Source: Herbiconiux oxytropis (GTDB taxonomy: Bacteria; Actinomycetota; Actinomycetes; Actinomycetales; Microbacteriaceae). From it: DNA of 64,000 bases. The DNA lies in NCBI RefSeq assembly GCF_024979315.1, contig NZ_JANLCK010000008.1, forward strand, positions 62,001 through 126,000, in the 5' to 3' direction. Below the pieces are notes generated by a model. It made no database searches. It saw only the letters and a program-made list of their open reading frames with translations, and had not been told where the DNA came from. Positions 29,385-62,585 of the stretch are shown here, in pieces. Positions within the stretch are counted from its first letter, which is position 1. Each line of letters opens with the position of its first letter. The position numbers were made by a program, and so were the translations under genes.

Positions 29385-29411
29385 ATTGTCAGACAAAGTT
29401 TGACAGACAAT
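29385..29411. promoter_or_regulatory. Double GntR-type operator
   Basis: ATTGTCAGACAAA (29385-29397) matches the consensus ATTGTCNGACAAT with one mismatch. The complement of 29399-29411 (ATTGTCTGTCAAA) matches with two. The two copies face each other, 1 bp apart. A TTGACA at 29400-29405 and TATAGT at 29426-29431 on the plus strand could drive the SDR operon, although their 20-nt spacing is long. Confidence 0.7.
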
Positions 29412-29470
29412 CCGAAGCAACTAGTTATAGTATGTAGAACGAACACAAGCGCGAAGAAGGGCTGGTTGAA

Positions 29471-30178
29471 GTGAGCGACAGAACCATCGTGGTCGTCGGA
29501 GGGACCTCCGGCATCGGCCTGGAGCTCGCCAAGGACTGCATCGATCGCGGCGACAGCGTCGTGATCACGGGCCGCGACCAGTCCCGCACCGAGGAGATCG
29601 CCGCTTCGCTCGGCCCGAAGGCCACCGGGATCGCCCTCGACATCTCCGAGCCCCGCTCGATCGCCGAGCAGCTGAAGCCCGTCGGCCAGGCCCACGGCCT
29701 CGTGCTCGCCGCCATCGAGCGCGACCAGAACACCATCCGCGACTACGACATCGAGCGCGCCATCCGCCTCGTGACCCTCAAGCTCGTGGGCTACACCGAG
29801 ACCATCCACACCCTGCTCGACCGCCTCGACCCCACGGTCGACACCGGCATCGTGCTCTTCGGCGGCCGCGCCAAAGACCTGCCGTATCCGGGCTCGACGA
29901 CCGTCTCCTCCATCAACGGCGGCGTGACCGGGCTCGTGAACACCCTCGCTCTGGAGCTCGCCCCCATGCGCGTGAACGCCCTGCACCCCGGCATCATCGG
30001 CGACAGCCCGTTCTGGGCGAACAAGCCAGAGGGCGTGCTCGACGGCTACGAGAGCCGCACCCCTGGCGGCAAGCTCGCCACCATGGCCGACGTCGTCGAC
30101 GCGACGCAGTTCCTGCTGCGCAACCGCGGCGTCTCGGCCGTCAACCTCTACGTCGACCGCGGCTGGTCGATCACCTGA
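29471..30178 (+). CDS. SDR-family protein lacking the Tyr-xxx-Lys catalytic pair
   Basis: A 235-residue short-chain dehydrogenase-like protein with the cofactor motif VVGGTSGIGLELAKD at the N-terminus and a normal C-terminal region (VNALHPGIIGDSP). The active-site segment, usually YxxSKGG, reads VSSINGG (about residue 145), so Tyr and Lys are missing. The NNAG motif is also absent. It may still bind NAD(P) or act as a non-classical reductase. GTG start; it leads a unit with the monooxygenase and alpha/beta hydrolase. The promoter contains GntR-type and MarR-like motifs. Confidence 0.82.
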   Translation: MSDRTIVVVGGTSGIGLELAKDCIDRGDSVVITGRDQSRTEEIAASLGPKATGIALDISEPRSIAEQLKPVGQAHGLVLAAIERDQNTIRDYDIERAIRLVTLKLVGYTETIHTLLDRLDPTVDTGIVLFGGRAKDLPYPGSTTVSSINGGVTGLVNTLALELAPMRVNALHPGIIGDSPFWANKPEGVLDGYESRTPGGKLATMADVVDATQFLLRNRGVSAVNLYVDRGWSIT

Positions 30179-30183
30179 CCCGA

Positions 30184-30204
30184 CACCCTCTCCGGGTGCC
30201 TTTT
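30184..30204 (+). terminator. Possible weak terminator or attenuator
   Basis: CACCC TCTCC GGGTG CC TTTT lies between the SDR stop and the monooxygenase start. The 5-bp stem with a short T-run could reduce read-through into the next gene. Confidence 0.3.
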
Positions 30205-30225
30205 CAACGACGAAAGGAACGCACG

Positions 30226-31476
30226 ATGACGATCACCGAGGAGGCCCGGCCCAGCCAGGCCGAGAGCACGCCCCACGAGGATCCCGCCGCGCTCGAGAAG
30301 CGGCTCGTCGCGGCCGCCCGGTCGATGCGGGACGAGATCATCTCCTACTCGGCCGAGGGCCAGGAGGTCACCCACATCCCCGAGGGGCTGCACCGCCGGT
30401 TCGACGGGGAGGGCTTCTACGGGATGTACATCCCGCGCGCCCACGGCGGGCTCGAGGTGCCGCCCGTGACGTTCTTCAAGGTCGTGCAGGAGATCGCGCG
30501 CGCCGACATGGGGATCGCCTGGAGCTTCTGCCTCTCGGCCAACCACGCCCTCATGTTCGCCAACTGGTTCCCCGAGGAGATCCACGCCGAGGTCTACGCC
30601 GGCGGCGACTTCCGGGCCGCATCGATGTACGCGCCCACCGTGAAGGCCACGCCCGTGGAGGGCGGCTGGGAGCTCAACGGCGTCGTCAACTTCTGCTCCG
30701 GCATCCCGTGGTCGACCTACTTCCTCGGTCAGTGCATGCTGCCGGGCAAGACCGAGAAGGGCGGGCCACGGCTCGGCCTCTACATCGCGCCCAAGGAGAC
30801 GTTCGAGATCCTCGACGACTGGGGCAACATGATCGGCCTGAGCTCGTCGGGCTCGAACAGCATCCGCTTCGACGGCACCTTCCTGCCCGAGCGCTTCCTG
30901 GTGGAGGACGCCGACCTCATGGACTACGCCTTCGACGGCGACAGCCCCGGATCGGCGGCCTACGGCAACTCGATGTACTCGGCGCGCCACATGAGCTCGT
31001 TCGGTCTCGCCCTCGCCGCGCTCTGCCTCGGCGGAGCGTACGGCGCCCTCGACGAGTTCGCGGCGCTCATGACCACCCGCAAGACGACCATCCCGCCCTT
31101 CGTGATGCGCAGCCAGGACCCCGACTTCCTGCGCTACTACGGCGGAGCCATCGCGAAGCTCGCCATGAACGAGGCCGCCACCTACAAGGCGCTCGAGATG
31201 TGGCAGGACGCAGCCGCCGACAACGTGGCGGGCATCGCGCCGTTCTCCCAGGAGACCGACGCCATCCTCGGCGCGATCGGCCGCGAGGTCATCATCCAGA
31301 CCTGGGAGGTCGTGGAGCGCGACCTCTACCGCACCATCGGGGCCTCGGCCTCGAAGAAGGGCGAGCGGTTCGAGCAGATCTTCCGCGACATGGCGCAGGC
31401 CGCCGGTCACCGCAACCCGCAGCTGCGGGATGCGACCTTCCAGCTGATCGCCCGCCAGGCCCTGGGCCAGATGTGA
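30226..31476 (+). CDS. Flavin-dependent monooxygenase, acyl-CoA dehydrogenase fold (DszC/HsaA-like)
   Basis: A 416-residue protein with acyl-CoA-dehydrogenase N-terminal and Acyl-CoA_dh_2 C-terminal domains. Group D flavin monooxygenases share this fold and take reduced flavin from a partner reductase. Visible blocks are YGMYIPRAHGGLEVPPVTF (about residue 65), NFCSGIPWSTYF, DDWGNMIGLSSSGSNSI and the C-terminal helix region RDLYRTIGASASKKGERFEQIF. The catalytic Glu of true acyl-CoA dehydrogenases is not evident. A flavin reductase is encoded at 62699. A paralogous oxygenase is at 36493. AAAGGA precedes the ATG. The substrate is probably an aromatic or heterocyclic compound. Confidence 0.82.
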   Translation: MTITEEARPSQAESTPHEDPAALEKRLVAAARSMRDEIISYSAEGQEVTHIPEGLHRRFDGEGFYGMYIPRAHGGLEVPPVTFFKVVQEIARADMGIAWSFCLSANHALMFANWFPEEIHAEVYAGGDFRAASMYAPTVKATPVEGGWELNGVVNFCSGIPWSTYFLGQCMLPGKTEKGGPRLGLYIAPKETFEILDDWGNMIGLSSSGSNSIRFDGTFLPERFLVEDADLMDYAFDGDSPGSAAYGNSMYSARHMSSFGLALAALCLGGAYGALDEFAALMTTRKTTIPPFVMRSQDPDFLRYYGGAIAKLAMNEAATYKALEMWQDAAADNVAGIAPFSQETDAILGAIGREVIIQTWEVVERDLYRTIGASASKKGERFEQIFRDMAQAAGHRNPQLRDATFQLIARQALGQM

Positions 31477-32513
31477 GCGAGGGTGCAGCGACCGACGTCG
31501 CCGAAGGCCGCGTAGCGGCGCTCCCCGCGGAGTTCGAGCACTACCCCGTGCGCGCGGTCCGCCGCGGTCACTTCTGGATCGCGGGCGAGCGTGTCGAGAG
31601 CGAGCGCGGCACCGTGCAGCGCGCCCCGCTCTTCGTGGAGTGGGAGGCGCCCGAGGAGATCACCCGGCCATATCCGCTCGTGCTCGTGCACGGCGGCGGC
31701 GGTCAGATCACCGACTGGCGCGGCACGCCCGACGGCCGGCCCGGCTGGTCGGACAAGTTCGTCGACGCCGGATACCTCGTGTACCTCGTCGACCGGCCGG
31801 CGCACGGTCGCTCGTGGGCGCATCCGGATGTCGTGGGCACCCCGGGCGCCCAGTTCAGCTACGAGATGGCGATGGGCCTGTTCGACACCGAGATCGACGG
31901 GCACGACCAGTCTCTCTGGTCCGGCGGCATCGGCGATCCGATGCTCGACCAGCTCATCTCCGGCATGGGGTTCCTCCCCGCCGACCTCGCCGAGTCGCAC
32001 CGCATGGACCAGGACCGGATCAGCCGGCTGCTCGACCGGATCGGCCCCGCGGTGCTCGTGACGCACTCCGCGGGCGGGCCGACGGGGTGGCTCGTGGCCG
32101 ACGCCCGGCCGGAGCTCGTGAAGGCGCATGTGGCGATCGAGCCGATGGGGCCCCCGTTCCACGAGTTCGGCCCCGGCACCCGGCTCGACTGGGGGATCGC
32201 GGCGTCGCCGCTCACCTACGACCCGCCCGTGTCGGACGCGGCCGCGCTCGAGGCGGCGGTGACCGAGAACCCGGGCAGCCACACGCTCCCGGCGCTGAAG
32301 GATCTGCCGGTGGTCGTGGTGGTGGGGGAGACCTCGCCGTTCACGGCGTGGGCGCCCCTCATGGTCGACTACGTCAATGCCGCCGGGGGCAGCGCCGAGT
32401 TCCTCAATCTCGGCGAGCACGGAGCGCGCGGCAACGGACACGCGATGATGCTGGAGAAGAACTCCGACGAGGCGATCGTGCCGATCCTGGAATGGATAGG
32501 CCGCATCTCCTAG
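31473..32513 (+). CDS. Alpha/beta hydrolase
   Basis: A 346-residue hydrolase with the oxyanion motif LVLVHGGGGQITDW (about residue 70), DRPAHGRSWAHP, nucleophile elbow VLVTHSAGGPTGWLVA (Ser about residue 197) and a late histidine in ARGNGHAMMLEKN. It is a serine esterase- or amidase-like enzyme; the exact substrate cannot be read. The GTG start overlaps the monooxygenase stop (GTGA), so it probably cleaves or processes the monooxygenase product. Confidence 0.85.
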   Translation: MSEGAATDVAEGRVAALPAEFEHYPVRAVRRGHFWIAGERVESERGTVQRAPLFVEWEAPEEITRPYPLVLVHGGGGQITDWRGTPDGRPGWSDKFVDAGYLVYLVDRPAHGRSWAHPDVVGTPGAQFSYEMAMGLFDTEIDGHDQSLWSGGIGDPMLDQLISGMGFLPADLAESHRMDQDRISRLLDRIGPAVLVTHSAGGPTGWLVADARPELVKAHVAIEPMGPPFHEFGPGTRLDWGIAASPLTYDPPVSDAAALEAAVTENPGSHTLPALKDLPVVVVVGETSPFTAWAPLMVDYVNAAGGSAEFLNLGEHGARGNGHAMMLEKNSDEAIVPILEWIGRIS

Positions 32514-32539: not shown

Positions 32540-33076
32540 CTAATAACTCGGCGGGGTGATGGCGACGATGTAGGTCGCCTTCTCCTCGCTGTCGTTGAAG
32601 AGGCGGTGGGGCAGCCGCGAGTCGTAGTGGCAGCTGTCCCCCGCCTCGAGCACGACGGTCGACCCGTCGACGTCGATCGACAGGGTTCCTGCCACGACCA
32701 CGATGCACTCCTCCGCCGCGTGGCTGCGCGGCTCGGTGCTCGACTCGCCGCCCGGCGCGATGTCGCCCTGCAGCACCTCGATCGTTCCGCGCGCCTTCGA
32801 CAGGCGCGTGTAGGTGATCGAGGTCGCCGGGGTGGTGATCTCGATGTGCTCGCCCTTGCGCATCACGGAGACCCGGCTCGACTCCTCCTCGTCGACGAAG
32901 AGCTCGAAGAGGGGCACCTCGAGCACCCGCGCGATCTGGCGCAGGGTCTCGAGGCTCGGATCGGCGAGACCCCGCTCCACCTGGCTGATCAGCCCGCTCG
33001 AGACGCCCGCCGCACCGGCCAGCTGCGCCACGGTGAGGCCGCGCTGGGCCCGGATCTCGCGGATTCGGAAAGTCAT
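32540..33076 (-). CDS. XRE-cupin transcriptional regulator
   Basis: A 178-residue regulator with an N-terminal helix-turn-helix (IREIRAQRGLTVAQLAGAAG; GVSSGLISQVERGLADPSLETL) and a C-terminal cupin sensor domain (PGGESSTEPRSHAAEECIVV; HYDSRLPHRLFN). Such proteins sense small metabolites through the cupin. It diverges from the aminotransferase-NhaC pair and is tail-to-tail with the alpha/beta hydrolase. The gap holds the direct repeat GTTTCA / CTTTCA, a possible binding site. Confidence 0.92.
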   Translation of the reverse strand: MTFRIREIRAQRGLTVAQLAGAAGVSSGLISQVERGLADPSLETLRQIARVLEVPLFELFVDEEESSRVSVMRKGEHIEITTPATSITYTRLSKARGTIEVLQGDIAPGGESSTEPRSHAAEECIVVVAGTLSIDVDGSTVVLEAGDSCHYDSRLPHRLFNDSEEKATYIVAITPPSY

Positions 33077-33151
33077 GATGGAATCCTAGGGGCGGCGTCA
33101 GAATAAGTTTCAATCACGTTAACTCTCTTTCATCCAGGTGACGATCGGCAT

Positions 33152-33157
33152 TAGAGT
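33152..33157 (+). promoter_or_regulatory. -10 box of the aminotransferase gene
   Basis: TAGAGT ends 7 nt before the ATG at 33165, with TTTCAT 18 nt upstream as a weak -35. The message should be leaderless. Confidence 0.55.
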
Positions 33158-33164
33158 CGCCCGC

Positions 33165-34334
33165 ATGACGACGACGCATCCCTCCTCGACGCCTTTCTCG
33201 GCCGAGGACTTCCGAGCGAACTTCCCGCCCCTTGCGAACATGGTGCACCTGGCCAGCTGCAGCCAGGGTGCGCTCTCGAATCAGCTCTCCGCCTCGCTGA
33301 CCGCGGTCACCGACTCCATCACCGACTCCGCGGCCCCCTGGGGTCTCTGGATGGACGAGGTGGAATCCCTGCGCGTGCGCATCGCGGCCTTCATCAACGC
33401 TTCGCCTGACGAGATCGCCATCGTCCCCTCGGCCTCCGAGGCCGCGTACCAGATGGTCTCGAGCTTCGACTGGTCGAAGGGCGGCGCCATCCTCACCTCG
33501 AATCTGGAGTTCCCCTCAGTCGGCCACGTGCTGCGGGCCCAGCAGGCCAACGGGGCCGAGATCCGCTCGATCGACGACCGCATCGCCGCGCTCGAGGCCG
33601 ACGCGTGGGCGCCCCTCATCGACGAGGGAGTCAGGCTCGTGTCTGTGCCGCTCGTGAGCTACCACGACGGATCGCGTGCCGACGCGGCCGCCGTCACCGA
33701 GCTCGCGCACGCGGCGGGCGCCCGGGTGTTCGTCGATGCCTATCAGGGCGCGGGCGTCGTGCCCATCGACGTCAAGGCGCTCGACTGCGACTACCTCACG
33801 ACCGGATCCCTGAAGTACATGCTCGGTCTCGCCGGCGTCGCGTTCCTCTACGTGCGCGGTGGCATCACGAGCGATCGGATGCCAGAACTCACCGGCTGGT
33901 TCGGCCGGGTCGACCCCTTCGCCTTCGACCCCGCGCTCGTCGACTACCCCGAGACCGCACGCCGCTTCGAGAGCGGAACCCCGGCCGTCCCCGCGGTGTA
34001 CGCCGCCGGCGCCGGACTCACTCTGCTCGAGTCGATCGACCAGGAGGCCGGCTGGGCGCACGTCGTGCGGCTCAGCGACCTGCTGGCCGACGGGCTCACC
34101 GAGCTCGGCGTCGAGCTCAGCCGCCCGGCCTCGGCGGCGCGCCGCGGCCCCCAGGTGGCGCTCTACGACGACGACCCGGTGGCGCTCTCGGCCGCCATCC
34201 ACGAGCACCGCGTCATGTCGGCGCCCCGCAGCCGCCTGCTGCGGCTGTCGCTGCACTACTACAACACCGAAGCGGACGTGAAGGCCGCGCTCACCGCCAT
34301 CGCCGCCGCGCGCCATGGGAAGGACGCATCGTGA
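33165..34334 (+). CDS. Class V aminotransferase-fold PLP enzyme
   Basis: A 389-residue PLP enzyme of the cysteine desulfurase / isopenicillin-N-epimerase-like family. Visible are the substrate loop MVHLASCSQGALS, the PLP phosphate region SASEAAYQM, the cofactor Asp in VFVDAYQGAGVVP and the Schiff-base lysine in YLTTGSLKYMLGLAG (about residue 222). The reaction may be transamination, epimerisation or C-S/N cleavage; sequence alone does not decide. It is coupled to an NhaC-type transporter (GTGA overlap), and the adjacent XRE-cupin gene suggests metabolite control. Confidence 0.88.
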   Translation: MTTTHPSSTPFSAEDFRANFPPLANMVHLASCSQGALSNQLSASLTAVTDSITDSAAPWGLWMDEVESLRVRIAAFINASPDEIAIVPSASEAAYQMVSSFDWSKGGAILTSNLEFPSVGHVLRAQQANGAEIRSIDDRIAALEADAWAPLIDEGVRLVSVPLVSYHDGSRADAAAVTELAHAAGARVFVDAYQGAGVVPIDVKALDCDYLTTGSLKYMLGLAGVAFLYVRGGITSDRMPELTGWFGRVDPFAFDPALVDYPETARRFESGTPAVPAVYAAGAGLTLLESIDQEAGWAHVVRLSDLLADGLTELGVELSRPASAARRGPQVALYDDDPVALSAAIHEHRVMSAPRSRLLRLSLHYYNTEADVKAALTAIAAARHGKDAS

Positions 34335-35821
34335 CCGACAGCAAGGCCCCGGCCAGCGAGCAGGCGACGGCCCACGAGCCGCTGACCTTCCGCGTCGGCA
34401 TGCTCGGCGCACTCATCGCGCCCTTCGTCTTCCTCATCGGCGTGATCGCCTACTTCGTGGTCTTCGCCGTCTTCGACATGAACGCCCTCACCGCATCCGG
34501 GCTCGCCGGCCTCATCATCGCGGCGCTGTTCTCGCGCAAGTACAGCCGGTTCTGGGACGCGGTGATCTCGGGCGTCTCGTCGCGCCCCTCGGTCACGCTT
34601 CTGCTGATCCTGCTGACGGTGAGCCTCGTCTCGGCGCTCATCACGGCCACCGACGTCTCGGGCGGCTTCGTCTGGCTCGCGAGCACCCTCGGCGTGAGCG
34701 GTGGAGTCTTCATCGCCGTCATCTTCCTCATGGCCTGTGCCATCTCGATGTCGACCGGCACCTCGATCGGCACGCTCTTCACCGCGTTCCCGATCTTCTA
34801 CCCGGCCGGCGTGCTGCTCGGGGCCGATCCTCTGCTCCTGGCCGGAGCCATCCTCTCGGGAGCGCTCTTCGGCGACAGCCTCGCGCCGATCTCCGACTCC
34901 ACGATCGTCTCGGCCTCGACCCAGCGCTACCGGCGCAAGGTCGGCACGGCCGAGATCGGCGGCGTCGTGCGGTCGCGGGCGAAGTTCGCGCTGCCGGCCG
35001 CAGCCGTCAGCGCCATCCTGTTCCTCGTGATCGGTTCCGCGGTGTCGCCGGGCACCGACATGAGCGCCGCCGACATCGTCGACGCAACGGGGGCCGGCCC
35101 GCTGCCGCTGATCATGCTCGTGCCGATCGCGCTGCTGCTCTTCACGGCGTTCTGGAAGCGCGACATCTTCCTCGCCACGACCGTGGGACTCATCGCGGGC
35201 ACCGTGCTGGGCCTCGTGACCGGTCTGCTGGACTTCTCCGACATCATCTCGGCGAACGACGACGGCACCCCCGGCGGATTCCTCGTGGCGGGCGTCGGCG
35301 ACATCATCCCGCTGATCGGCCTCGGCATCGTGATCTTCGGCATGATCGGCGTGCTGCAGGAGGCCGGGGTGTTCGACGCGATCGTGAACGCCGCGAGCCG
35401 CTCGGCGTTCGCGAGGACGCCACGCGGAGCGGAGGTCGTGATCGGCCTCGGTGCACTCGCCACGGCGACCGTGTTCGCGGGCGTGAACGGGCCGTCGATG
35501 ATCATGTTCGGCCCCGTGGCCGACCGGATCGGCGCCGCGGCCGGGCTGCACCCCTACCGCCGGGCCAACGTGATGGAGGGCTTCACCCTCGGCCTCGGCT
35601 CGGTGGTGCCGATCGTGAGCTCGTTCCTGCTCATCGCGAGCCTGCTCACCCAGGGCCACGAGGGTGTTCCGGAGGTCGCGGCGCCCGCCATCTTCCTCGG
35701 CGCCTTCTACCCGCTCGCGCTCACCCTCGTGATCGCCATCTCGGTGCTGACCGGCTGGGGTCGCCGCTTCGAGGGCGAGGGCGGCGCCGAGAGTCGCACG
35801 CCGGTCCCGCCCGTCGACTGA
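34331..35821 (+). CDS. NhaC-family Na+/H+ antiporter-like transporter
   Basis: A 496-residue polytopic protein with about 11-12 helices. The family blocks AISMSTGTSIGTLFTAFPI, GAILSGALFGDSLAPISDSTIVSA and ATATVFAGVNGPSMIMFGPVAD are clear. NhaC-family members exchange Na+ or organic acids and amino acids across the membrane. Because it is coupled to a PLP enzyme gene, import of that enzyme's amino-acid-like substrate is a reasonable inference. GGAAGGA precedes the GTG. Confidence 0.9.
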   Translation: MTDSKAPASEQATAHEPLTFRVGMLGALIAPFVFLIGVIAYFVVFAVFDMNALTASGLAGLIIAALFSRKYSRFWDAVISGVSSRPSVTLLLILLTVSLVSALITATDVSGGFVWLASTLGVSGGVFIAVIFLMACAISMSTGTSIGTLFTAFPIFYPAGVLLGADPLLLAGAILSGALFGDSLAPISDSTIVSASTQRYRRKVGTAEIGGVVRSRAKFALPAAAVSAILFLVIGSAVSPGTDMSAADIVDATGAGPLPLIMLVPIALLLFTAFWKRDIFLATTVGLIAGTVLGLVTGLLDFSDIISANDDGTPGGFLVAGVGDIIPLIGLGIVIFGMIGVLQEAGVFDAIVNAASRSAFARTPRGAEVVIGLGALATATVFAGVNGPSMIMFGPVADRIGAAAGLHPYRRANVMEGFTLGLGSVVPIVSSFLLIASLLTQGHEGVPEVAAPAIFLGAFYPLALTLVIAISVLTGWGRRFEGEGGAESRTPVPPVD

Positions 35822-35920
35822 ACCCCGGCCCGATGGGGAGTTGTGCCCATTGAGGGCGGCGCGGTGCTGGGCGACGCTGGAGGGAGCCATAAGGCCCGGA
35901 CACGACCGAAGGGGAGATCG

Positions 35921-36448
35921 ATGCGCAGCGAATCGCAGACGGCGACACGGAGAACGAGTGCACACCGGCGGTGGGGCGGGGGGACGACAACCCTCCGACG
36001 CTCGATCGCGTCGGTCGCCTTCGCCGCGCCCGTCGCGCTGCTGCTGGCGGCCTGCGGTGTGCCTGCCGACCTCACGGTGGGCGAGAGCGCCGGCATCTCC
36101 GGTGGATCCCTGACGATCACCTCGATCGAGGAGCGGCCGGCCTCCGATCTCGTCGATATCGAACTCGACGAGCTCGAGGGCCAGACCCCGTACTTCGTGC
36201 ACTACGAGGTGGAGTTCGACGGAGCTGACGACTCCCTCGACAGGAGCCTGTGGAAGGGTTCCGCTTCGAGCGGCGAGGTGACTCCGCTGAACATCATCGA
36301 CATCGGCGGGAACTTCGACTGCAACCCGACCGGTGACGTGACCGAGGGGCAGGCGGAGGGCTGCCAGCTCCTGATGGTCGAGAGCGGGGCCACGCTGGAA
36401 TCCGTCGGCTACGGTGCGGCGGGCCGATGGACGGTGTCGGACTCCTAG
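35921..36448 (+). CDS. Lipoprotein of unknown function
   Basis: A 175-residue protein with a basic N-terminus, a hydrophobic segment and the lipobox LLLAACG (Cys about residue 46). The mature part is an acidic beta-rich region with two further cysteines (FDCNPTG; EGCQLLM) that could form a disulphide. GGGGAG lies 5 nt before the ATG. I do not recognise a named family; it resembles small actinobacterial exported proteins with DUF4352-like folds, but this is uncertain. Confidence 0.75.
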   Translation: MRSESQTATRRTSAHRRWGGGTTTLRRSIASVAFAAPVALLLAACGVPADLTVGESAGISGGSLTITSIEERPASDLVDIELDELEGQTPYFVHYEVEFDGADDSLDRSLWKGSASSGEVTPLNIIDIGGNFDCNPTGDVTEGQAEGCQLLMVESGATLESVGYGAAGRWTVSDS

Positions 36449-36455
36449 AAGACAG

Positions 36456-36487
36456 GCGGCCGGCCCCGCGATCGCCGAGCCGGCCGC
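36456..36487. terminator. Hairpin between convergent genes
   Basis: GCGGCCGGC (36456-36464) pairs perfectly with GCCGGCCGC (36479-36487) around a 14-nt loop. It separates the lipoprotein gene and the second monooxygenase gene, which run toward each other. Confidence 0.6.
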
Positions 36488-36492
36488 AGGGG

Positions 36493-37722: not shown

Positions 37723-37779
37723 GCGTGCGTCTCCGATTCGCGTCATTGCGGTTCCGGCGCGCGGCCGAGACTCGGTATT

Positions 37780-37798
37780 TATAGTGGTTATAACTATA
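37780..37798. promoter_or_regulatory. MarR operator dyad
   Basis: TATAGT and ACTATA, perfect 6-bp arms with a 7-bp centre (19 bp in total), lie between the divergent monooxygenase and MarR genes. This is the usual size and placement for a MarR-family operator. Confidence 0.75.
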
Positions 37799-37841
37799 TG
37801 GATGTCCGGCTCGTCCTGCAAGCACCTCTTCGGCCGCGCGT

Positions 37842-37847
37842 TACACT
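37842..37847 (+). promoter_or_regulatory. -10 box of the MarR gene
   Basis: TACACT ends 6 nt before the ATG at 37854, consistent with leaderless transcription. Confidence 0.5.
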
Positions 37848-37853
37848 GCTTCG

Positions 37854-54633: not shown

Positions 54634-54665
54634 CCCTCCGCCCACCTCTTCCCCAAGGAGCAACG

Positions 54666-56048
54666 ATGCCCCAGGTCTCCGACGCGGATCTCTCCGCCCT
54701 CCGTTCCGAGCTGGACGGCCCCCTGTTCGAGCGCGGCGACGAGGGCTACCAGCCCGAGATCGACGGCTTCAACTCGCTCTCTCCCATGCGGCCCGACTAC
54801 GTGGTGGGCGCCACCTCGGAGGCGGACGTGCAGGCGGCGGTGCGGTTCGCCGGCGCGCACGGCCTCGAGGTGAGCGTGCAGGCCACGGGTCACGGCTCCT
54901 ATCGGGGTGTCGACCACGGCGTGCTCATCCGCACCCACCGGCTCGACTCGGTGACGGTCGACCCGGCAGGGCCGACGTTCACCATCGGGGCGGGCGCGCG
55001 CTGGATGGGGATCCTGCCGCACCTCGGCGAGCACGGCCTAGCCGCCGTCACCGGATCCTCCCCGAGCGTGGGAGCCGTGGGCCTCGTGCTCGGCGGGGGC
55101 ATCGGCCCGCTCAGCCGCACGCTCGGCTGGGCCGCCGACCGCGCCGTGTCGTTCCGCGTGGTGATCGGCGACGGATCGGTCGTCGTGGCGAGCGCCGAGA
55201 GCGAGCCCGACCTGTTCTGGGCGCTCAAGGGCGGCAAGGTGGGCCTCGGCGTGGTCACCGAGCTCACCCTCCAGGCGCTCGAGCTCACCGAGATCTACGG
55301 CGGAGGCCTGTTCTTCGCGCAGGAGGACATCGCCACCGTGCACCGGGCCTGGTTACCGTGGGCGAAGAGCCTGCCCGAGTCGGCGAACACCTCGATGTCG
55401 ATCGTGCGGCTGCCGCCTGTCGGCGTGCCCGAGCCGCTGGCGGGGCGCACGCTCGCCCACCTGCGGTTCGCCTACGTGGAGCAGGGCGCCGAGACGGGCG
55501 CGCTGTCGTCGCGGGGCGCCGAGCTGCTCGCCCCGATGCGCGCGGTGGCGCCGGTCTACATCGACGGCGTCGACGTCATGCCCTTCACCGATGTGGGCAC
55601 CATCCACGCGGAGCCCTTCGGCCCGCTGCCCATCTGGGAGCGCGGTGAGTTCCTCGACGACGTCGACGAGACCTACGTCGAGCGCATCCTCGAGCACGCG
55701 GGCGGCGATGTCGAGGCGCCCTTCGCCAACGTCGAGACGAGGCTCCTCGGCGGGGCCATCGCGCGCGACGCCGCGCTGCCCAACGCGATCGGAGGCCGCG
55801 GAGCCCAGTTCTCGCTGCTCACCATCGCGGCCGTCATCCCCGGGGTCAACGACCAGGCGCTCCCCGTGGCCGGTCCCGCGCTCTACGACTCGGTGGCCGA
55901 CTACTCGCACGACGAGATCAACTACAACTGGGCCGGGCACCCGAGCCCCGAGGTCTTCGCGCGGCTGTGGCCCGCCGACATCGCGGCGCGGCTCGCCCAG
56001 GTGCGCGCAACCTACGATCCTGCCGGCGTCTTCGCCTACGGGAACTGA
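54666..56048 (+). CDS. BBE-type FAD-binding oxidoreductase
   Basis: A 460-residue flavoprotein with a PCMH FAD domain (RPDYVVGATSEADVQAAV; QATGHGSYRGVDHGVLI with the His that usually carries 8alpha-linked FAD; GSSPSVGAVGLVLGGGIGPLSR) and a C-terminal berberine-bridge segment (YDSVADYSHDEINYNWAG, then the final WPADIAARLAQVRATYDPAGVF). Relatives include 6-hydroxy-D-nicotine oxidase. AAGGAG lies 6 nt before the ATG. The substrate is unknown. Confidence 0.88.
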   Translation: MPQVSDADLSALRSELDGPLFERGDEGYQPEIDGFNSLSPMRPDYVVGATSEADVQAAVRFAGAHGLEVSVQATGHGSYRGVDHGVLIRTHRLDSVTVDPAGPTFTIGAGARWMGILPHLGEHGLAAVTGSSPSVGAVGLVLGGGIGPLSRTLGWAADRAVSFRVVIGDGSVVVASAESEPDLFWALKGGKVGLGVVTELTLQALELTEIYGGGLFFAQEDIATVHRAWLPWAKSLPESANTSMSIVRLPPVGVPEPLAGRTLAHLRFAYVEQGAETGALSSRGAELLAPMRAVAPVYIDGVDVMPFTDVGTIHAEPFGPLPIWERGEFLDDVDETYVERILEHAGGDVEAPFANVETRLLGGAIARDAALPNAIGGRGAQFSLLTIAAVIPGVNDQALPVAGPALYDSVADYSHDEINYNWAGHPSPEVFARLWPADIAARLAQVRATYDPAGVFAYGN

Positions 56049-56076
56049 CAGATAGACATATAAGAGGAGTGCACTC

Positions 56077-56910
56077 ATGACCAGCATCGCCGGACGGGTG
56101 GCCGTCGTCACCGGAGGAGCCAGCGGCATCGGCCGCGGCATCGCCGAACAGCTGATCGCCGAAGGCGCCCAGGTCGTGATCGCCGACGTGCAGCAGGATG
56201 CGCTCGACGCGACGGCCGCGGAGATCGGCGCCACGGGCATCCGCGTCGACGTCACCGACCCCGCGAGCGTCGAGGCGCTCGCCGCCGAGGTGATCGAGCG
56301 GTTCGGTTCGGTCGGCATCGTCGTGAACAACGCGGGCATCGGGGCGCTCGGGCGCCTCGCCGACCTCTCGCTGGCCGACTGGAAGTGGATGATCGACGTC
56401 AACCTCTGGGGCGTCATCCACGGCATCACCACGTTCCTGCCGCTTCTGAAGGCGAACCCGGACGGTGGGCACATCGTCAACACCGGATCGATGGCGTCCT
56501 TCTCGCCCATGGCCGGCGGCGGGGCCTACGCCGTCACCAAATACGGGGTGGCCGCGCTCACCGAGGCGCTCGCGATCGAGCTCGAGGAGGACGGCGTGCC
56601 GGTGCACGTGACGCTCCTCGCGCCCGGCACCGTGCGCACCAACATCAAGAACAGCACCCGCAACCGGCCGGCGGAGCTCGCGGGCGGCCTCGCCGACGTC
56701 GACATCTCGGAGGGGGTCGCCGCAGACCTCCGCTGGATCGACCCGATCGAGGCGGGGCGGATCGTCACCCGCTCTATCCGCAATGACGATCTGTACGCGC
56801 TCACGCATCCGGACTGGTGGCACATCGTCGAGGGACGGCAGGCCGCGATCCGCACCGCCTTCGAGAAGTACCCGGTCGACGCGTCGGCGGCTGCGGCGGA
56901 CGCGTCATGA
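56077..56910 (+). CDS. SDR-family oxidoreductase
   Basis: A 277-residue classical SDR with VTGGASGIGRGIAEQL, VNNAGIGALG, the active-site YAVTKYGVAALTEAL, and a Ser in NTGSMASFSPM. GAGGAG precedes the ATG. Its stop overlaps the dehydrogenase ATG (ATGA). It is part of the ten-gene oxidative operon. Confidence 0.93.
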   Translation: MTSIAGRVAVVTGGASGIGRGIAEQLIAEGAQVVIADVQQDALDATAAEIGATGIRVDVTDPASVEALAAEVIERFGSVGIVVNNAGIGALGRLADLSLADWKWMIDVNLWGVIHGITTFLPLLKANPDGGHIVNTGSMASFSPMAGGGAYAVTKYGVAALTEALAIELEEDGVPVHVTLLAPGTVRTNIKNSTRNRPAELAGGLADVDISEGVAADLRWIDPIEAGRIVTRSIRNDDLYALTHPDWWHIVEGRQAAIRTAFEKYPVDASAAAADAS

Positions 56911-58028
56911 CCACGTGGCGAGGGCGCGCCGGTGTGCTGCGCGCGATCAAGGAGCCGTTCTCGATCGAAGAGGTCCACCTCCTGCCGCTCGACCCGCATC
57001 GTGTGGCCGTGAAGACGCACGCGAGCCCCTTCTGCTCGACCGATGTGAAGAACTGGAAGGGCAAGCTCTACAAGATCCCGCCCACCATCCTCGGTCACGC
57101 CTCGATCGGCGAAGTGGTGGAGGTGGGCTCGGCCGTCTCCGGCATCCGCGTGGGGCAGCGCGTCGTGGTGCCGGGAACCCCCGAGTGCGGCGTCTGCTAC
57201 TACTGCGGCATCGGTGAGCCGTGGCAGTGCGGCGAGCTGTTCGACCTCGGCGGCATCTACCCCGACATCGCCTCGGGCGATGACGGTGCACGGATCTCGT
57301 GCGCCGGCTGTGTAGGAGGCTACGCCGAGTACATGTCGATCTCGGGCAACCAGGTCTTCCCGGTGGAGTCGGACCTCGACTCCGACGTGCTCTCGATGCT
57401 CGGCTGCGGCATCTCGACGGGGGTCGGATCGGTGTTCAACGTCGCACAGGTGCAGCCGGGGGAGTCGGTGGCCATCGTGGGTGCCGGGCACCTCGGGCTG
57501 TGGATGCTGCAGGCCGCGCGACTCGCGGGGGCGGGCAGCGTCACGGTGGTGGAGCCGCACGCCGAGCGGCTCGCGCTCGCCGGTTCGCTGGGAGCGGATG
57601 TGCTCGTCGATCCCGGATCCACGCCGGAGGAGGCCGCCGAGGCGCTCGCCGCGGTGCGGGCCGCGACCGGGGGTCGGGGTGCCGACGTGGTGCTCGAGGC
57701 CGCGGGGCCTGCGGTGTCGCAGAGCTTCGCGGTGCAGGCGTCGCGCCGGGGTGGCCGCACGGTGCTCACGGGCTTCGAGATCGGTGGTGCCACGCTGCCG
57801 TTGCCGCAGGTCGAGACCGCGCTGCAGAGCCGGCGCATCCTGAGCTCGCAGAACGGGCAGGTGCACATGAAGAGCGATCTGCAGCGCTACACGGGGCTGC
57901 TCGAGCGCGGGCTGCTCGACGCGGCTCCGATCCTGACGCGGCGCTACCCGATCGAGGAGCTCGATCTCGCGCGGGATCGGTCGGGGAGTCTCGACGACGT
58001 GTGCGGGGTGATCGTCTTCGACCACTGA
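56907..58028 (+). CDS. Zinc-dependent alcohol dehydrogenase
   Basis: A 373-residue MDR enzyme with the catalytic zinc region PFCSTDVKNW and ILGHASIGEVV, structural zinc CGVCYYCGIGEPWQC, and Rossmann motif IVGAGHLGLWMLQAA. It is paralogous to the enzyme at 41467. This is the last gene of the operon that begins at 48267. It likely completes oxidation of an alcohol produced by the VAO- or hydroxylase-type enzymes. Confidence 0.9.
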   Translation: MTTWRGRAGVLRAIKEPFSIEEVHLLPLDPHRVAVKTHASPFCSTDVKNWKGKLYKIPPTILGHASIGEVVEVGSAVSGIRVGQRVVVPGTPECGVCYYCGIGEPWQCGELFDLGGIYPDIASGDDGARISCAGCVGGYAEYMSISGNQVFPVESDLDSDVLSMLGCGISTGVGSVFNVAQVQPGESVAIVGAGHLGLWMLQAARLAGAGSVTVVEPHAERLALAGSLGADVLVDPGSTPEEAAEALAAVRAATGGRGADVVLEAAGPAVSQSFAVQASRRGGRTVLTGFEIGGATLPLPQVETALQSRRILSSQNGQVHMKSDLQRYTGLLERGLLDAAPILTRRYPIEELDLARDRSGSLDDVCGVIVFDH

Positions 58029-58107: not shown

Positions 58108-59124
58108 ATGCGCATCGTCATCGTGGGAGCCAGCGGCAATCTCGGAACAGCACTGCTCCGGCGGGCCCTGCCGGAGCCGGAGGTGCAGCTCGTGGGGGTG
58201 TCGCGCCGGCGACCGAGCGACGAGGCGCCCTACTCGGCTGCGGAATGGCATCCGCTCGACATCGCCGCGGGCAGTGCGCCCACCCGGCTGCGCGCCGTGT
58301 TCGACGGTGCCGACGCCGTGGTGCACCTCGGCTGGAAGCTGCAGCCGAACCACGACGAGGCCGAGATGGCCCGCACCAACGTGCGCGGCACGCGCGTGGT
58401 GCTCGAGGCGGCCGCGGCGGCGGGGGTGCCGCACGTGCTCGTGGCGTCGTCGGTGGGGGCATACAGCTTCGGACCGAAGCACTCGCGGGTGTCGGAGAGC
58501 TGGCCCACGGGTGGCATCCAGACCTCCCACTACGGGCGGCACAAGGCCATCAACGAGCGGCAGATGGATGCGTTCGAGGTCTCGCACCCTTCGATCGTGC
58601 TCACGCGCCTGCGGCCGGGGCTCGTGTTCCAGCCCGATGCCGCTCGGGAGATCGCGCACCTGTTCGCCGGCCGGCACATCCCGGTGCCGTTGCTCGCGCT
58701 CGTGAAGCGGCTGCCCGTGCTGCCGTTGCCCACCTCCCTCATCTCGCAGGCGGTGCACGCCGACGACGTGGCGGACGCGTTCTGGCGTGCCATCCAGCGG
58801 CGGGCCGGCGGGGCCTTCAATATCGCTGCCGAGCCGGTGCTGGGGCCTGAATCGGTGGCGGAGGCGTTGGGGATCCCGCGCACGGTGCCGTTCCGTCGTC
58901 AGGTGCTGCGGGCGATCGTCGACGTCTCGTGGCGGCTGCGGCTGCAGGCCTCGGATCCGGGGTGGATCGACATCGCCACCTCGGTGCCCGTGATGTCGAC
59001 GGCGCGTGCCCGGGCGGAGCTGGGGTGGGAGCCGACGGTGTCGTCCACGGCGGCGCTGAGGTCGTTGGTGGATGCGCTCGGGGTGAATCGGGGGCATGAG
59101 CCTTCGCCTTCGCTGGGGGCGTGA
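58108..59124 (+). CDS. NAD-dependent epimerase/dehydratase-like SDR
   Basis: A 338-residue extended SDR. It has the motif IVGASGNLGTALLRRAL, the active-site Tyr-Lys in YGRHKAINERQM, and a C-terminal domain with ISQAVHADDVADAFWRAI. CACACT lies 6 nt before the ATG as a weak leaderless -10. It stands alone between the catabolic operon and the HNH gene. The substrate is unknown. Confidence 0.86.
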   Translation: MRIVIVGASGNLGTALLRRALPEPEVQLVGVSRRRPSDEAPYSAAEWHPLDIAAGSAPTRLRAVFDGADAVVHLGWKLQPNHDEAEMARTNVRGTRVVLEAAAAAGVPHVLVASSVGAYSFGPKHSRVSESWPTGGIQTSHYGRHKAINERQMDAFEVSHPSIVLTRLRPGLVFQPDAAREIAHLFAGRHIPVPLLALVKRLPVLPLPTSLISQAVHADDVADAFWRAIQRRAGGAFNIAAEPVLGPESVAEALGIPRTVPFRRQVLRAIVDVSWRLRLQASDPGWIDIATSVPVMSTARARAELGWEPTVSSTAALRSLVDALGVNRGHEPSPSLGA

Positions 59125-59209
59125 GCTGCCGCGCGCTTCGCGCTTGCCTTCGATGGGCGTGGTTGGGTGTCAGGGGCCAGTGTCGGTGGGTGCTGGTTGA
59201 ATAAACCTC

Positions 59210-60502
59210 ATGAAGACGACGTTCGGATCCTCGCCTGGGGCGGCCCTGGATGGGTTGGCGCGGGCGATCTCGGATGAGGTTGCGGGGTTCGTGCGGGATG
59301 AGCGGGAGATTGCGAAGCTGCAGGCCCGTCAGGCGCGCCGGTTGGCGCGGGCGGTGGGGTTGGCGGAATCCAAGGCGGAGTTGCTGCAGGGTGGTCTGAC
59401 GCCGAAGGCGCGGGAGTGGGCGAGGCGGTCGTTGCGGGCGGAGGTGGCGTGTGCGTCGCGGCGTTCGGAGGGGGCGGTGTCGCGTCTGATCGCGGATGCG
59501 GAGACGCTGGTGTCCGATCTGCCTTCGACGCTCGCTGCGCTCGAGGCGGGTGAGGTGTCCTACGCCCACGCCCGCTTGGTGGTGGTGCACGCCGGCTCGC
59601 TGCCGATCGAGGCGCGTGCTGGGTTCGAGCACGCGGTCCTGCCGCAGGCGCGGGAGAAGAACCCGGCCCGCTTCGACGACGCCGCCCGGCATCTCCGCGA
59701 GGTGCATCACCCCGAGTCGATCACCCGCCGTGCCGTGCTCGCGCGTGAGGAGCGTGCCGTCTGGCTGGATGCGGAGCGTGATGGCATGGCGACCCTCCAT
59801 CACCATCTGTCGGCGGTGGATGCGTTGGCGATTCATGACGTGATCGATCAGGCGGCCCGCGCCGCACGAAGCGACGCCGAACCGCGCACGCAGGCGCAGC
59901 TGCGTTCGGACATCCTCGCGGACCGCATCCTGGGCCGTGCTGATGGGTTGGCCGGTTTCGTCCCGAGTGTGATCGTGACGGTCCCGGCGGTGGTGCTGGC
60001 CGGGTGCGAATCAGATCCCACCGACTCACTCCCTTCCATCCCGGCCGACCCACCCGCGGAGTTGCACGGTTACGGCCCCATCGACCCCGGCACCGCGCGC
60101 CGCATCGCCGCAGCCGCGCCCACATTCCTCCGCGTGCTCACCCACCCGGCTACCGGTGACGTGATCGAGACCGCCGGCCGGTACCGCATCCCGACCGCAC
60201 TGCGCGAGGTGCTGGTCGTGGCCGATGAGCACTGCCGCTTCCCCGGGTGCGGGCGCCGGGCCGCCCGCTGCGAGCTCGATCACACGGTGGATTGGGCGCA
60301 CGGGGGTCGAAGTACCGCGTCGAACCTCGCCCACCTCTGCACGAGCCACCATCACCTGAAACACGAGGGCGGCTGGCAGGTCGCCCGCCCACCCGACACC
60401 GGGCCCGCATCCCGCACCCTCGAGTGGCGATCACCTCTCGGCGCCACCTACCGCACCACCCCACCCGCTCGGGCGAGCTGCAACGACCCGCCACCCTTCT
60501 GA
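59210..60502 (+). CDS. DUF222/HNH endonuclease domain protein
   Basis: A 430-residue protein with an N-terminal DUF222 helical domain (LLQGGLTPKAREWARRSLRAEV in part; TLAALEAGEVSYAHARLV) and a C-terminal HNH motif CRFPGCGRRAARCELDHTVDWAHGG followed by NLAHLCTSHHHLKHEG. The zinc Cys pair and the catalytic His are all present. This family is present in many copies in Actinobacteria and is often linked to mobile DNA. It has no obvious tie to the neighbouring catabolic genes. Confidence 0.93.
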   Translation: MKTTFGSSPGAALDGLARAISDEVAGFVRDEREIAKLQARQARRLARAVGLAESKAELLQGGLTPKAREWARRSLRAEVACASRRSEGAVSRLIADAETLVSDLPSTLAALEAGEVSYAHARLVVVHAGSLPIEARAGFEHAVLPQAREKNPARFDDAARHLREVHHPESITRRAVLAREERAVWLDAERDGMATLHHHLSAVDALAIHDVIDQAARAARSDAEPRTQAQLRSDILADRILGRADGLAGFVPSVIVTVPAVVLAGCESDPTDSLPSIPADPPAELHGYGPIDPGTARRIAAAAPTFLRVLTHPATGDVIETAGRYRIPTALREVLVVADEHCRFPGCGRRAARCELDHTVDWAHGGRSTASNLAHLCTSHHHLKHEGGWQVARPPDTGPASRTLEWRSPLGATYRTTPPARASCNDPPPF

Positions 60503-60562
60503 TGCACCGACGGGTGCCGGCGGGTGCCGAAGGATGGCGGGCGCGATGGGCGGTTCTCTGGC

Positions 60563-62134
60563 TCAGGCCCCGTCGCGGTACTTGGCCGGCCAGACTCCGT
60601 GGCGGCCGGGGGAGAGGATGCCCTTGGGGTCGACCGCGTCCTTGATCGCCTGGGTGAAGCGACGGTAGGCGTGATCGCCGAAGGAGTACTGCTCCGAGGC
60701 GAGGTCCATGAAGTCGAGGTGCGCGCGGTACTCGCCGTAGCCGAGCGCCGCGACCTCCTCGATCAGGATCTTCACCGTCTCGAACGTGCGCGCCACATCC
60801 TCGGCATTCGTGCGATCGAAGCTCACCGAGCTCACGATCATCGCACTCCGATCGTTGGTCGGGAAGATCGCACACACGAAGTTCGTGCCCGTGCGCTCGA
60901 TCACCCTCGCCTTGATCCGGTCCACGACCTCCACGACCTCCGCACCCTTCAACGGCACGATGGGCGAGAAGCCCACGTGCCCGACCCAGTCGGGCATCTG
61001 CTCCATCATCTCCATGGTGGGGATGCCCGCCGAGATCTTCTGCATGAACGTCGAGATCTCGTGCCAGTTCGACGCCCCGAACCGGCCGAGCTCATCGATC
61101 CGCGAACCCTCGATCGCCGACCACGCCTCACGGATCCGCGCGAGATGGTGATCGATCACCGGCCCGTCCCCCCACAGCGCCGTGCGCACGCCCCAGCGCC
61201 CGATGCCCGTGGCGTCCGCCAGCGCATCGAGCCTGTCCTCCGACCATGTCGCATCCGCCCCCGGGAACATGCCCATGTGCTCGGGGAACTGCGTGCCCAT
61301 CGTGATGAGGTTCTGCAGATTCGGCACCCCGCGGATGACCCCGTCGAGCCGGAGCTCCCGGATGATGTCGATCGCCTGCGCCAGCTGATGATCCCGCGGC
61401 ACCGACAGGTAGAGCGGCGCGTACTCCCGCGGCCGCCGCATGAGCCACACGCCCATGCGCGTGACGATGCCGTAGTTCGACTGCGTGAAGAGCGGATCCA
61501 GCGTCGGGCCGAGCCCCCGCTTGTAGACGTGCCACGACTTCGAGTCCGGGATCGCCCCCATGCCCGTGCGCAGCAGCGAACCGTCGGCGAGCACGACCTC
61601 CATACCCGTGGGCGCCTGGAAGTCGCTGCCGAGCGGCAGATAGGTCATGCCGTTGTCGAGCGAGTTGCCGATGATCGAACCCCACCCGATGTCCGGCACC
61701 GAGAGCATGAGCTCGTCGCCCAGCTCGTGCAGGGCCGCGTGCAGATCGAGCCAGCGCACCCCCGGCTCCACCACCGCGTAGGCGAGTTCGGTGTCGATCT
61801 CGAGGATGCGGTTCATCTGCCGCAGACTGATCAGCACCGAACCGGCCACCCGCGGCGACGGACCGCCGTAGCCGTTGTTGCGACCCTGCGACGAGGTCCA
61901 CACCGGCACCTCGTAGCGGCCGGCGATCCGCACGATCTCCTGCACCTGCTCCACACTCGTGGGGAAGACGACCGCCGACGAGTCGTAGGTGCGGTCGTCG
62001 TGGTGCCAGTACGGGTCGCGGAAGGTGTCGCGCTCCTCCTCGGTGAGGAGGATGTTCTCGCGGCCGACGACCGCGACGAGCTCGTCGCGCGCGGCGTCCG
62101 GCAGCGTGGCCGGCTCGGGACGACGGGTGGTCAC
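60563..62134 (-). CDS. Vanillyl-alcohol-oxidase-like FAD enzyme 2
   Basis: A 523-residue paralog of the flavoprotein at 53068, with the same GRNNGYGGPSPRVAGSV, VPDIGWGSIIGN, TGMEVVLADGSLLRTGMG, YRAHLDFM and KGILSPGRHGVWP blocks. The two proteins differ mainly in the middle cap region. The GTG start overlaps the cupin stop (GTGA), so the pair is coupled. Expected reaction: side-chain oxidation of a para-substituted phenol. Confidence 0.88.
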   Translation of the reverse strand: MTTRRPEPATLPDAARDELVAVVGRENILLTEEERDTFRDPYWHHDDRTYDSSAVVFPTSVEQVQEIVRIAGRYEVPVWTSSQGRNNGYGGPSPRVAGSVLISLRQMNRILEIDTELAYAVVEPGVRWLDLHAALHELGDELMLSVPDIGWGSIIGNSLDNGMTYLPLGSDFQAPTGMEVVLADGSLLRTGMGAIPDSKSWHVYKRGLGPTLDPLFTQSNYGIVTRMGVWLMRRPREYAPLYLSVPRDHQLAQAIDIIRELRLDGVIRGVPNLQNLITMGTQFPEHMGMFPGADATWSEDRLDALADATGIGRWGVRTALWGDGPVIDHHLARIREAWSAIEGSRIDELGRFGASNWHEISTFMQKISAGIPTMEMMEQMPDWVGHVGFSPIVPLKGAEVVEVVDRIKARVIERTGTNFVCAIFPTNDRSAMIVSSVSFDRTNAEDVARTFETVKILIEEVAALGYGEYRAHLDFMDLASEQYSFGDHAYRRFTQAIKDAVDPKGILSPGRHGVWPAKYRDGA

Positions 62135-62541
62135 TTGTCGTCCGCCAGGCCGGTGGTCACCGAGGCCGCTGCATACTCCTCCTCCGAGACCTCCTCGAGC
62201 CACACCGTGTCACCGAGCGTGATGGCCGTGTGCCCGAGCAGCGACTCGGCGGTGCCGCCGTGCCAGTGCCGCTCACCGGGCTCGATCCACACCGTGTCGC
62301 CCTCCGAGATGAGCTGGGGCACGCCGTCGGCACCGGCCACGAAACCGCGACCGCGGAAGACCTGGAGGATCTGCCCGTGCGAGTGGTGGTGCCAGTAGGT
62401 GCGCGAGCACGGCGTGAACAGCACCGTGTTGATCTTCACGTCGGCGCGGTCGGTGATCACCGGGTCCTGGAGCACCTGCCCCGTGAACGTGCCGCTGGCA
62501 GTGATGGAGGGGGCACCGGATCGGCCCGAGATGATGCGCAT
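62131..62541 (-). CDS. Cupin-domain protein
   Basis: A 136-residue single-domain cupin similar to the small cupins found beside carboxymuconolactone decarboxylases and mandelonitrile-lyase-like enzymes. Metal-binding residues appear in RTYWHHHSHGQILQVFRG and PGERHWHGG. ATG 62541 is preferred, because the family usually starts MRIISGR-like and GGAAGAG lies upstream; ATG 62562 would add seven residues. It is coupled to the second VAO gene. The reaction is unknown. Confidence 0.85.
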   Translation of the reverse strand: MRIISGRSGAPSITASGTFTGQVLQDPVITDRADVKINTVLFTPCSRTYWHHHSHGQILQVFRGRGFVAGADGVPQLISEGDTVWIEPGERHWHGGTAESLLGHTAITLGDTVWLEEVSEEEYAAASVTTGLADDK

Positions 62542-62572
62542 GTCGCTCTCTTCCGTGAACATCGTCGTCCAG

Positions 62573-62585
62573 ATTGTCAGACAGT
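62573..62585. promoter_or_regulatory. GntR-type site at the cupin promoter
   Basis: ATTGTCAGACAGT matches the shared 13-mer with one mismatch and sits just downstream of a perfect TATAAT, at the expected transcription start of the cupin-VAO2 unit. Confidence 0.7.

Follow-up and report, generated by a model that had tools for sequence, protein, structure and literature searches.

A recurrent palindrome in an aromatic-catabolism island of Herbiconiux oxytropis, the probable operator of a GntR-FCD regulator

Organization of the island

A 64,000-nucleotide stretch of the Herbiconiux oxytropis genome (contig NZ_JANLCK010000008.1, positions 62,001 to 126,000, here C31:62001-126000, hereafter the window) was analysed with respect to a 13-base palindrome, ATTGTCNGACAAT, that recurs before genes of an uncharacterised, predicted aromatic-catabolism island. 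The palindrome is considered, at a probability of about 85%, to act as operator for a GntR-FCD protein whose gene lies at 46412-47134. The genome comprises 4,127,253 bases in 32 contigs. Gene units were taken from a codon-usage gene model together with Pfam and are listed below with the operator sites; positions prefixed L001 extend past the window end.

27837-29309, minus strand: amidohydrolase, predicted regulon member (Pfam, gene model)
29385-29411: double operator (29385-29397, 1 mismatch; 29399-29411, 2 mismatches) between the amidohydrolase (minus) and the SDR-monooxygenase-hydrolase genes (plus)
29471-32513, plus strand: SDR1 (29471-30178), HsaA/HpaB-type oxygenase MO1 (30226-31476) and alpha/beta hydrolase (31473-32513)
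36493-37722, minus strand: HsaA-type oxygenase MO2, without a site of its own here
41467-46297, minus strand: importer operon of NMT1-type binding protein, two permeases, ATPase and alcohol dehydrogenase (ADH, 41467-42552)
46334-46346: operator upstream of the NMT1-type importer operon, overlapping a -10-like hexamer
46412-47134, minus strand: GntR-FCD regulator, VanR-like (Pfam, structure model), the proposed operator-binding protein
47249-47261: operator between gntR (minus) and SDR3 (plus)
47340-48173, plus strand: SDR3 (Pfam on the longer frame)
48173-48185: operator before the ten-gene operon, its first base coinciding with the final base of the stop codon of SDR3
48267-58028, plus strand: ten-gene operon of NmrA-like, MBL, HIBADH-like, CMD, HIBADH-like, CMD, 4-phenol oxidase VAO1 (53068-54633), EncM/mitomycin-radical-oxidase-like VAO3 (54666-56048), SDR4 and ADH2
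60563-62562, minus strand: cupin (62131-62562) and 4-phenol oxidase VAO2 (60563-62134)
62573-62585: operator between cupin-VAO2 (minus) and the flavin reductase-FCD fusion (plus)
62699-63841 (open frame from 62636), plus strand: fusion of flavin reductase, degenerate winged helix and FCD
63900 to L001:685: SDR5, followed past the window end by HydA-HydB and SBP1-SBP2-RbsA-RbsC
L001:769 (the 64769 site): operator beyond the window, between SDR5 and the hydantoinase A/B genes
L001:5177 and 5191: tandem operator pair beyond the window, before a Peripla_BP_4/ABC/BPD_transp_2 importer

Distribution of the palindrome

Six copies with 1-2 mismatches, each in a promoter region, had been described in an earlier sequence-only reading. 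All six were present, with one mismatch at 29385, 46334, 47249 and 62573 and two mismatches at 29399 and 48173. At ≤1 mismatch the window held four sites against a shuffle mean of 0.00, and at ≤2 mismatches six sites against a mean of 0.46, with none of 100 shuffles reaching six.

The whole genome was scanned with the palindrome read backwards as the control for site counts. At ≤1 mismatch all six sites fell within C31:91385-131203 (40 kb) and comprised four of the above and a tandem pair 5 kb beyond the window. At ≤2 mismatches 9 of 13 sites fell within the same interval. As the reversed control gave nine sites at ≤2 mismatches (and one at ≤1), the four outlying sites (C2:32946, C27:388357, C28:38964 and C28:52057) are no more than expected by chance. 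A looser pattern, WTYGTMNKACRAW, was found eight times in the genome, five times in the cluster, versus zero for its control. The check for random genome-wide matches that the sequence-only reading had suggested thus returned confinement to the island. All nine cluster sites, three of which are outside the window, lie between predicted genes and are centred 17-121 bp upstream of a predicted start, in agreement with the proposed promoter-region placement. The palindrome has the form GTC-N-GAC and fits the FadR-subfamily consensus NyGTM-N0-1-KACNy (PMC4494728).

Overlap of the element with the -10 region had been proposed at 46334 and 47249. It holds at 46334 (TATTGT, 46347-46342), whereas over the 47249 site a sigma-70-like promoter could not be recognised. 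The latter site, centred 85 bp before the SDR3 start at 47340, is probably autoregulatory on account of its position between gntR and SDR3. The 48173 site overlaps a -35-like hexamer. In both tandem pairs (29385/29399 and L001:5177/5191) the spacing is 14 bp centre to centre, which suggests dimers bound side by side.

The GntR-FCD protein and its characterized relatives

The 46412 protein has the FCD (FadR) subfamily architecture of an N-terminal GntR winged helix (PF00392, 3.4e-20, 71.9 bits, cut-off 27) and a C-terminal FCD domain (PF07729, 8.3e-19, 68.7 bits, cut-off 24.3). Its structure model is confident (pLDDT 83.3) and predicts six effector-domain helices (91-115, 118-135, 141-159, 162-183, 188-204 and 208-238), as in the VanR group. 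Residues 23-88 match residues 8-73 of AlkR, a GntR/VanR protein of Pseudomonas aeruginosa SJTD-1 (PDB 9ISW). The match was taken as ungapped because the lengths are equal, and it places the AlkR residues R45 and R49 at R60 and R64. These are likewise equivalent to the contact arginines R45/R49 of Atu1419, the VanR protein of Agrobacterium fabrum (PDB 6ZA3), in which Arg45 contacts guanine and Arg49 phosphate (PMC7797058). R60 and R64 are invariant in 11 of 11 aligned GntR rows and were kept at all 74 relatives' loci described below (73 by pattern, L097 by reading its letters).

AlkR resembles the 46412 protein in its FCD/VanR architecture, in these contact arginines and in its operator, 5'-ATTGTCAGACAAT-3', which is the same 13-mer and lies over -10 regions. 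A DNase I footprint covers exactly ATTGTCAGACAAT, and mutation of R45 and R49 much reduced DNA binding (PMC12042122). AlkR also gave the highest TM-scores (0.73/0.82) among the 50 Foldseek matches listed, where it ranked 17th by E-value. In contrast, it is 23% identical to the 46412 protein in structural alignment, regulates alkB2, also binds the fadD, fadBA and fadE promoters and releases DNA on long-chain acyl-CoA (PMC12042122). No alkB-type alkane monooxygenase is among the named island genes, so that the 46412 protein does not appear to be an AlkR orthologue. Atu1419 is similar in being an FCD/VanR regulator of a plant-phenol (hydroxycinnamate) catabolic region; it differs in its operator, ATGTATACAT, in forming a tetramer with Zn and in its proposed effector, methylenetetrahydrofolate (PMC7797058).

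The operator type and regulator type are thus already known. In the open-licence PubMed Central literature searched, mostly titles and abstract starts, neither a regulon of this kind nor an FCD-flavin reductase fusion was found; within that literature the regulon with its distribution, and the reductase carrying an FCD domain, are new. A search with the operator letters gave, besides the AlkR paper and one on CrgA, three papers whose titles indicate no relation.

Conservation of sites and genes among relatives

Sites were counted at ≤2 mismatches in fetched stretches of five Herbiconiux relatives (G004, G005, G006, G008 and G014), in all of which the island is collinear, and of one genome of another genus (G032, gntR 73%). 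The NMT1/gntR (46334), gntR/SDR3, SDR3/NmrA and HydB/SBP1 sites were found in 5/5 Herbiconiux relatives, the amidohydrolase/SDR1 site in 4/4 of those reached, the site before HydA in 3/5 (G005, G008, G014) and the cupin/fusion site in 2/5 (G004, G008). G032 has sites at gntR/SDR3, SDR3/NmrA, before the cupin (the 62573 site) and before the ADH gene, while no match to the fusion or to the NMT1 importer was found in it. The double site at 29385/29399 recurs in G008, and a perfect single site takes its place in G005, G006 and G014. The 47249 site is kept with 0-1 mismatch and the 48173 site with 1-2 mismatches in all six relatives, including G032; the flank of the latter is equally conserved. Conservation of the site versus the rest of the intergenic region was clear at gntR/SDR3 (0.88 vs 0.54), NMT1/gntR (0.92 vs 0.59) and HydB/SBP1 (0.98 vs 0.77) and weak or absent at SDR3/NmrA (0.75, 0.71), amidohydrolase/SDR1 (0.65, 0.57) and cupin/fusion (0.40, 0.61).

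Across 16 whole genomes of the genus, at ≤1 mismatch, the six with a gntR orthologue (≥82%) and the fusion (≥83%) contained 6, 7, 6, 6, 6 and 7 sites, 38 in sum, versus 0-2 sites each and 5 in sum for the other ten. Of these 38, at least 4 are located outside the islands. A site is present within 1.5 kb of gntR in 6/6 orthologues at 82-100% identity, in the one at 73% and in 2/8 relatives below 50%.

Linkage was investigated further at 74 loci, nearly all from Actinomycetota, that were found by a profile of gntR relatives (38-100% identical). Each locus is 20 kb, reaching 10 kb, and together they amount to 1.448 Mb. They contained 90 sites at ≤2 mismatches versus 2 for the reversed control, and 53 of the 74 had at least one site. 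Outside predicted genes lay 88 of the 90 sites, in DNA of which 85.4% of bases are coding, and 86 were near a start. Many sites are situated approximately 5 kb upstream of gntR, ahead of the operon's first gene. With the four loci nearest the islands left out, the remaining 70 held 12, 32 and 77 sites at 0, ≤1 and ≤2 mismatches versus 0, 0 and 2 for the control, and 71% of the 77 carried an added outer G..C. Genes found with the regulator at these loci include CMD1 and HIB2 (53 loci each), HIB1 and MBL (51 each), cupin (46), CMD2 (43) and SDR3 (42). The same operator gives a core gene set that follows the regulator through many Actinomycetota. With this set defined, and with 53 loci sharing a site that can be tested with one probe, searches for the substrate and inducer become concrete.

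Proposed regulation and alternative explanations

A dimer of the 46412 protein would bind each palindrome with one winged helix per GTC half site. Dimers over or next to the promoters of approximately nine transcription units, including that of gntR itself, would most likely repress them. A compound that arises in or enters para-substituted phenol catabolism would serve as ligand, bind the six-helix FCD domain and cause the dimer to release DNA, whereupon the proteins for uptake, the two-component monooxygenases, the phenol oxidases and the enzymes of later steps would be made together. Regulators of this group usually repress by occluding promoters and are released by a ligand from the pathway. 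Such a mode has been reported for AlkR (PMC12042122) and Atu1419 (PMC7797058), and repression fits the location of sites over or beside promoters and before gntR itself; activation instead is conceivable.

Several observations weigh against the assignment of the palindrome to this regulator. The 29385 site is absent from G032 (its place is not reached in G004) and the 62573 site from G005, G006 and G014, three of the six relatives, the best matches having 5 mismatches. G004 and G006 showed no SDR5/HydA site at ≤2 mismatches. Windows of 13 bases at least as conserved as the site numbered 39 of 84 in the 48173 region, 58 of 149 in the 29385 region and 88 of 124 in the 62573 region. Among the 74 loci, 21 lack a site at ≤2 mismatches (nine at 60-64% identity and 12 at 38-58%, including all three proteobacterial metagenome-assembled genomes), and 2 of 10 relatives at 55-66% have one within 1.5 kb of gntR. 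A set of 19 flavin-reductase-like loci contained one site in 66 kb, about one quarter of the gntR-locus rate. The nearest solved relative by sequence and by Foldseek E-value is not AlkR but PmiR of Pseudomonas aeruginosa (PDB 7XP0/7XP1), 28-29% identical to the 46412 protein. Furthermore, the letters ATTGTCAGACAAT also appear, for the same alkB2 promoter, in an excerpt of a paper on CrgA, a LysR protein. In the window the excess of sites disappears at ≤3 mismatches (7 sites, shuffle mean 5.95). This last count, equal to that of the shuffles, would be explained if the sites were chance palindromes in AT-richer promoter DNA, an explanation contradicted by the genome scan, the relatives' scan, the intergenic bias, the shuffles at lower thresholds, the looser pattern and the placement in relatives. 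A chance origin was rejected on the whole-genome confinement and the 90 versus 2 sites in the relatives' loci, and we give it next to no weight.

The genome has 19 FCD matches, and the sites could be bound by another of these proteins, alone or together with the 46412 protein. FCD regulators share this palindrome type (PMC4494728), AlkR provides an example of the same operator in a distantly related member of the family (PMC12042122), and one match to WTYGTMNKACRAW, C3:16909, lies 8.5 kb from the FCD gene C3:25460. However, the island gntR and the fusion are alone among the 19 in lying within 10 kb of a ≤2-mismatch site, the other 17 having none, and operator linkage across relatives follows the 46412 gene, which makes involvement of another FCD protein improbable. 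Binding by the fusion itself, with the GntR gene as a bystander, is judged very improbable. The fusion has a winged-helix-like segment and an FCD domain, adjoins the 62573 site and shares its distribution over six Herbiconiux genomes with gntR, but a GntR winged helix was not detected in it by Pfam at E≤5, and the positions of R60/R64 are V/P and F/Y in 7/7 rows. Its own upstream region is without a site in the three Herbiconiux relatives named above, and G032 has operators but reductase-like matches of 33-35% identity only. In 49 genomes of site-bearing gntR loci (4 of the 53 loci, three from Herbiconiux and one second locus, were left out; for some large genomes 39 candidates were scored) a match extending into the FCD part was found in two (Kribbella G143 and Arthrobacter G161) and one to the reductase part only or little more in three, while 44 had none at E≤1e-30. 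The fusion was found in 2 of the 74 loci, a biased count as the loci reach 10 kb and the fusion is approximately 15 kb from gntR in Herbiconiux. The lack of a Pfam GntR domain, the lost arginines and its rarity in site-bearing genomes led us to reject the fusion as the protein that binds the operator. The evidence accordingly favours the GntR-FCD regulon with the 46412 protein as its regulator, as the sequence-only reading had it: the sites are confined in the genome and the relatives tie the operator to the 46412 gene.

The flavin reductase-FCD fusion

That reading had counted one GntR-FCD gene; the 46412 gene stands, and a second FCD gene, the fusion at 62636/62699-63841, had been missed. 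Its N-terminal flavin reductase domain is clear (PF01613, 135.9 bits, cut-off 27), and in profile comparison 190 of its columns align to GntR with a probability of 94.7. Its structure model is weak (pLDDT 62.2), so the best Foldseek matches are to be read with care: VanR Atu1419 for the C-terminal part and, over 312-319 columns with low TM-scores of 0.22-0.28, the HPAH reductase C1. The fusion groups with proteins of Kribbella (L113), Arthrobacter (L135) and G028. In a 24-row FCD tree a branch supported at 100/99 sets the fusion family apart, and the GntR group (99/96) forms a separate clade; most of the deeper forks are unsettled (12 of 21 inner branches), the terminal branches are long and row L165 seems to have been translated in a wrong frame. 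In BLAST the island GntR is among the weakest matches of the fusion (E 3.3). Origin as a recent duplicate of the island GntR was rejected by this tree, and the FCD domain of the fusion would accordingly be a separate recruitment of the fold.

The known protein most similar in design is AbHpaC, the C1 reductase of 4-hydroxyphenylacetate 3-hydroxylase (PDB 5ZC2), a flavin reductase with a C-terminal domain derived from a transcription factor. That domain is MarR, whereas the fusion has FCD with a degenerate winged helix. AbHpaC is self-inhibited and released by its substrate (PMC10816480), which makes a ligand-gated reductase the natural guess for the fusion; by this analogy it is perhaps a reductase with a built-in FCD-type sensor, whose relief by substrate would parallel that reported for AbHpaC. 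We further propose, tentatively and with doubt prevailing, that two FCD sensors read one metabolite, the GntR protein opening promoters and the fusion, its DNA binding lost, gating reduced flavin to the two HsaA/HpaB-type oxygenases. If true, a single signal from the pathway would control both transcription and electron supply, in each case through an FCD fold.

Extent of the proposed regulon

A regulon of about 20 genes over 33 kb had been proposed. A single regulon is supported, but it probably comprises approximately 31 genes over 46 kb, of which 24 lie inside the window and 7 at its end or past it. It probably passes the window end by at least 10 kb, with the SDR, hydantoinase A/B and ribose-type importer genes. 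Eight genes between the sites were matched in G008 only among the fetched islands and were for this reason not counted as members: HTH-cupin (32540), aminotransferase (33138), antiporter (34331), SDR2 (38305), MLTR (39261), FAD monooxygenase (40266), epimerase (58108) and DUF222 (59210). The first six could be compared in G005, G006, G014 and G032 alone, as the G004 contig ends in NMT1. The gene blocks within 32540-41453 and 58108-60502 are probably insertions into the island. The FAD monooxygenase (40266-41453) is in line after the importer operon and may be co-transcribed with it. MO2 is kept in the islands of G005, G006, G008, G014 and G032, in the last downstream of the site-bearing ADH gene. 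For this island the analysis provides a regulator with its operator and a list of genes.

Predicted enzymes and substrate

VAO1 and VAO2 match 4-allylsyringol and eugenol oxidases (PDB 9GOV, 5FXD) over nearly the whole chain (1e-111 to 1e-105). This resemblance suggests that the island oxidises a para-substituted phenol, the likely substrate, although for the Herbiconiux enzymes it is a prediction from sequence. VAO3 matches mitomycin radical oxidase and EncM. MO1 and MO2 are HsaA/HpaB-like oxygenases, and the N-terminal part of the fusion is HsaB/HpaC-like. Term searches for Herbiconiux or the gene context gave no passage on the substrate in the available excerpts of PMC12909556 and PMC11148156. 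HydA is nearest to the caprolactamase alpha and acetophenone carboxylase models; this match and the other NCBIfam matches quoted here fall far below the cut-offs of the models.

Additional sequence features

The 46334 operator lies inside a longer inverted repeat at 46322-46357 (AGATCAT, 46323-46329; ATGATCT, 46350-46356). Directly 3' of the 48173 site is a second palindrome-like stretch, ATTGACATCATACAAT (48186-48201), of which the GACATCATACAAT part is also found in G004, G006 and G008. The outlying site C28:52057 (L002:8058) is an exact copy of the letters of the 48173 site, 83 bp before an SDR gene and after a dipeptide-type ABC ATPase gene; it may be of chance origin. The stretch GTTGTAACTAAAT (62625-62637), ahead of the fusion or at its possible start, is kept with 1-2 changes in all five Herbiconiux relatives, even where the 62573 operator is lost. 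Pairs of perfect operators 96-127 bp apart were observed at L083, L089, L112 and L115 (Salinibacterium, Rhodoglobus and two Labedella), an arrangement that would be compatible with looping or with divergent promoters. A 95-aa frame of weak score that contains two Cys pairs (L001:853-1140), not counted in the regulon, starts 78 bp after the centre of the L001:769 site; preceding HydA, it is perhaps a small zinc-ribbon subunit of a hydantoinase/carboxylase-like enzyme.

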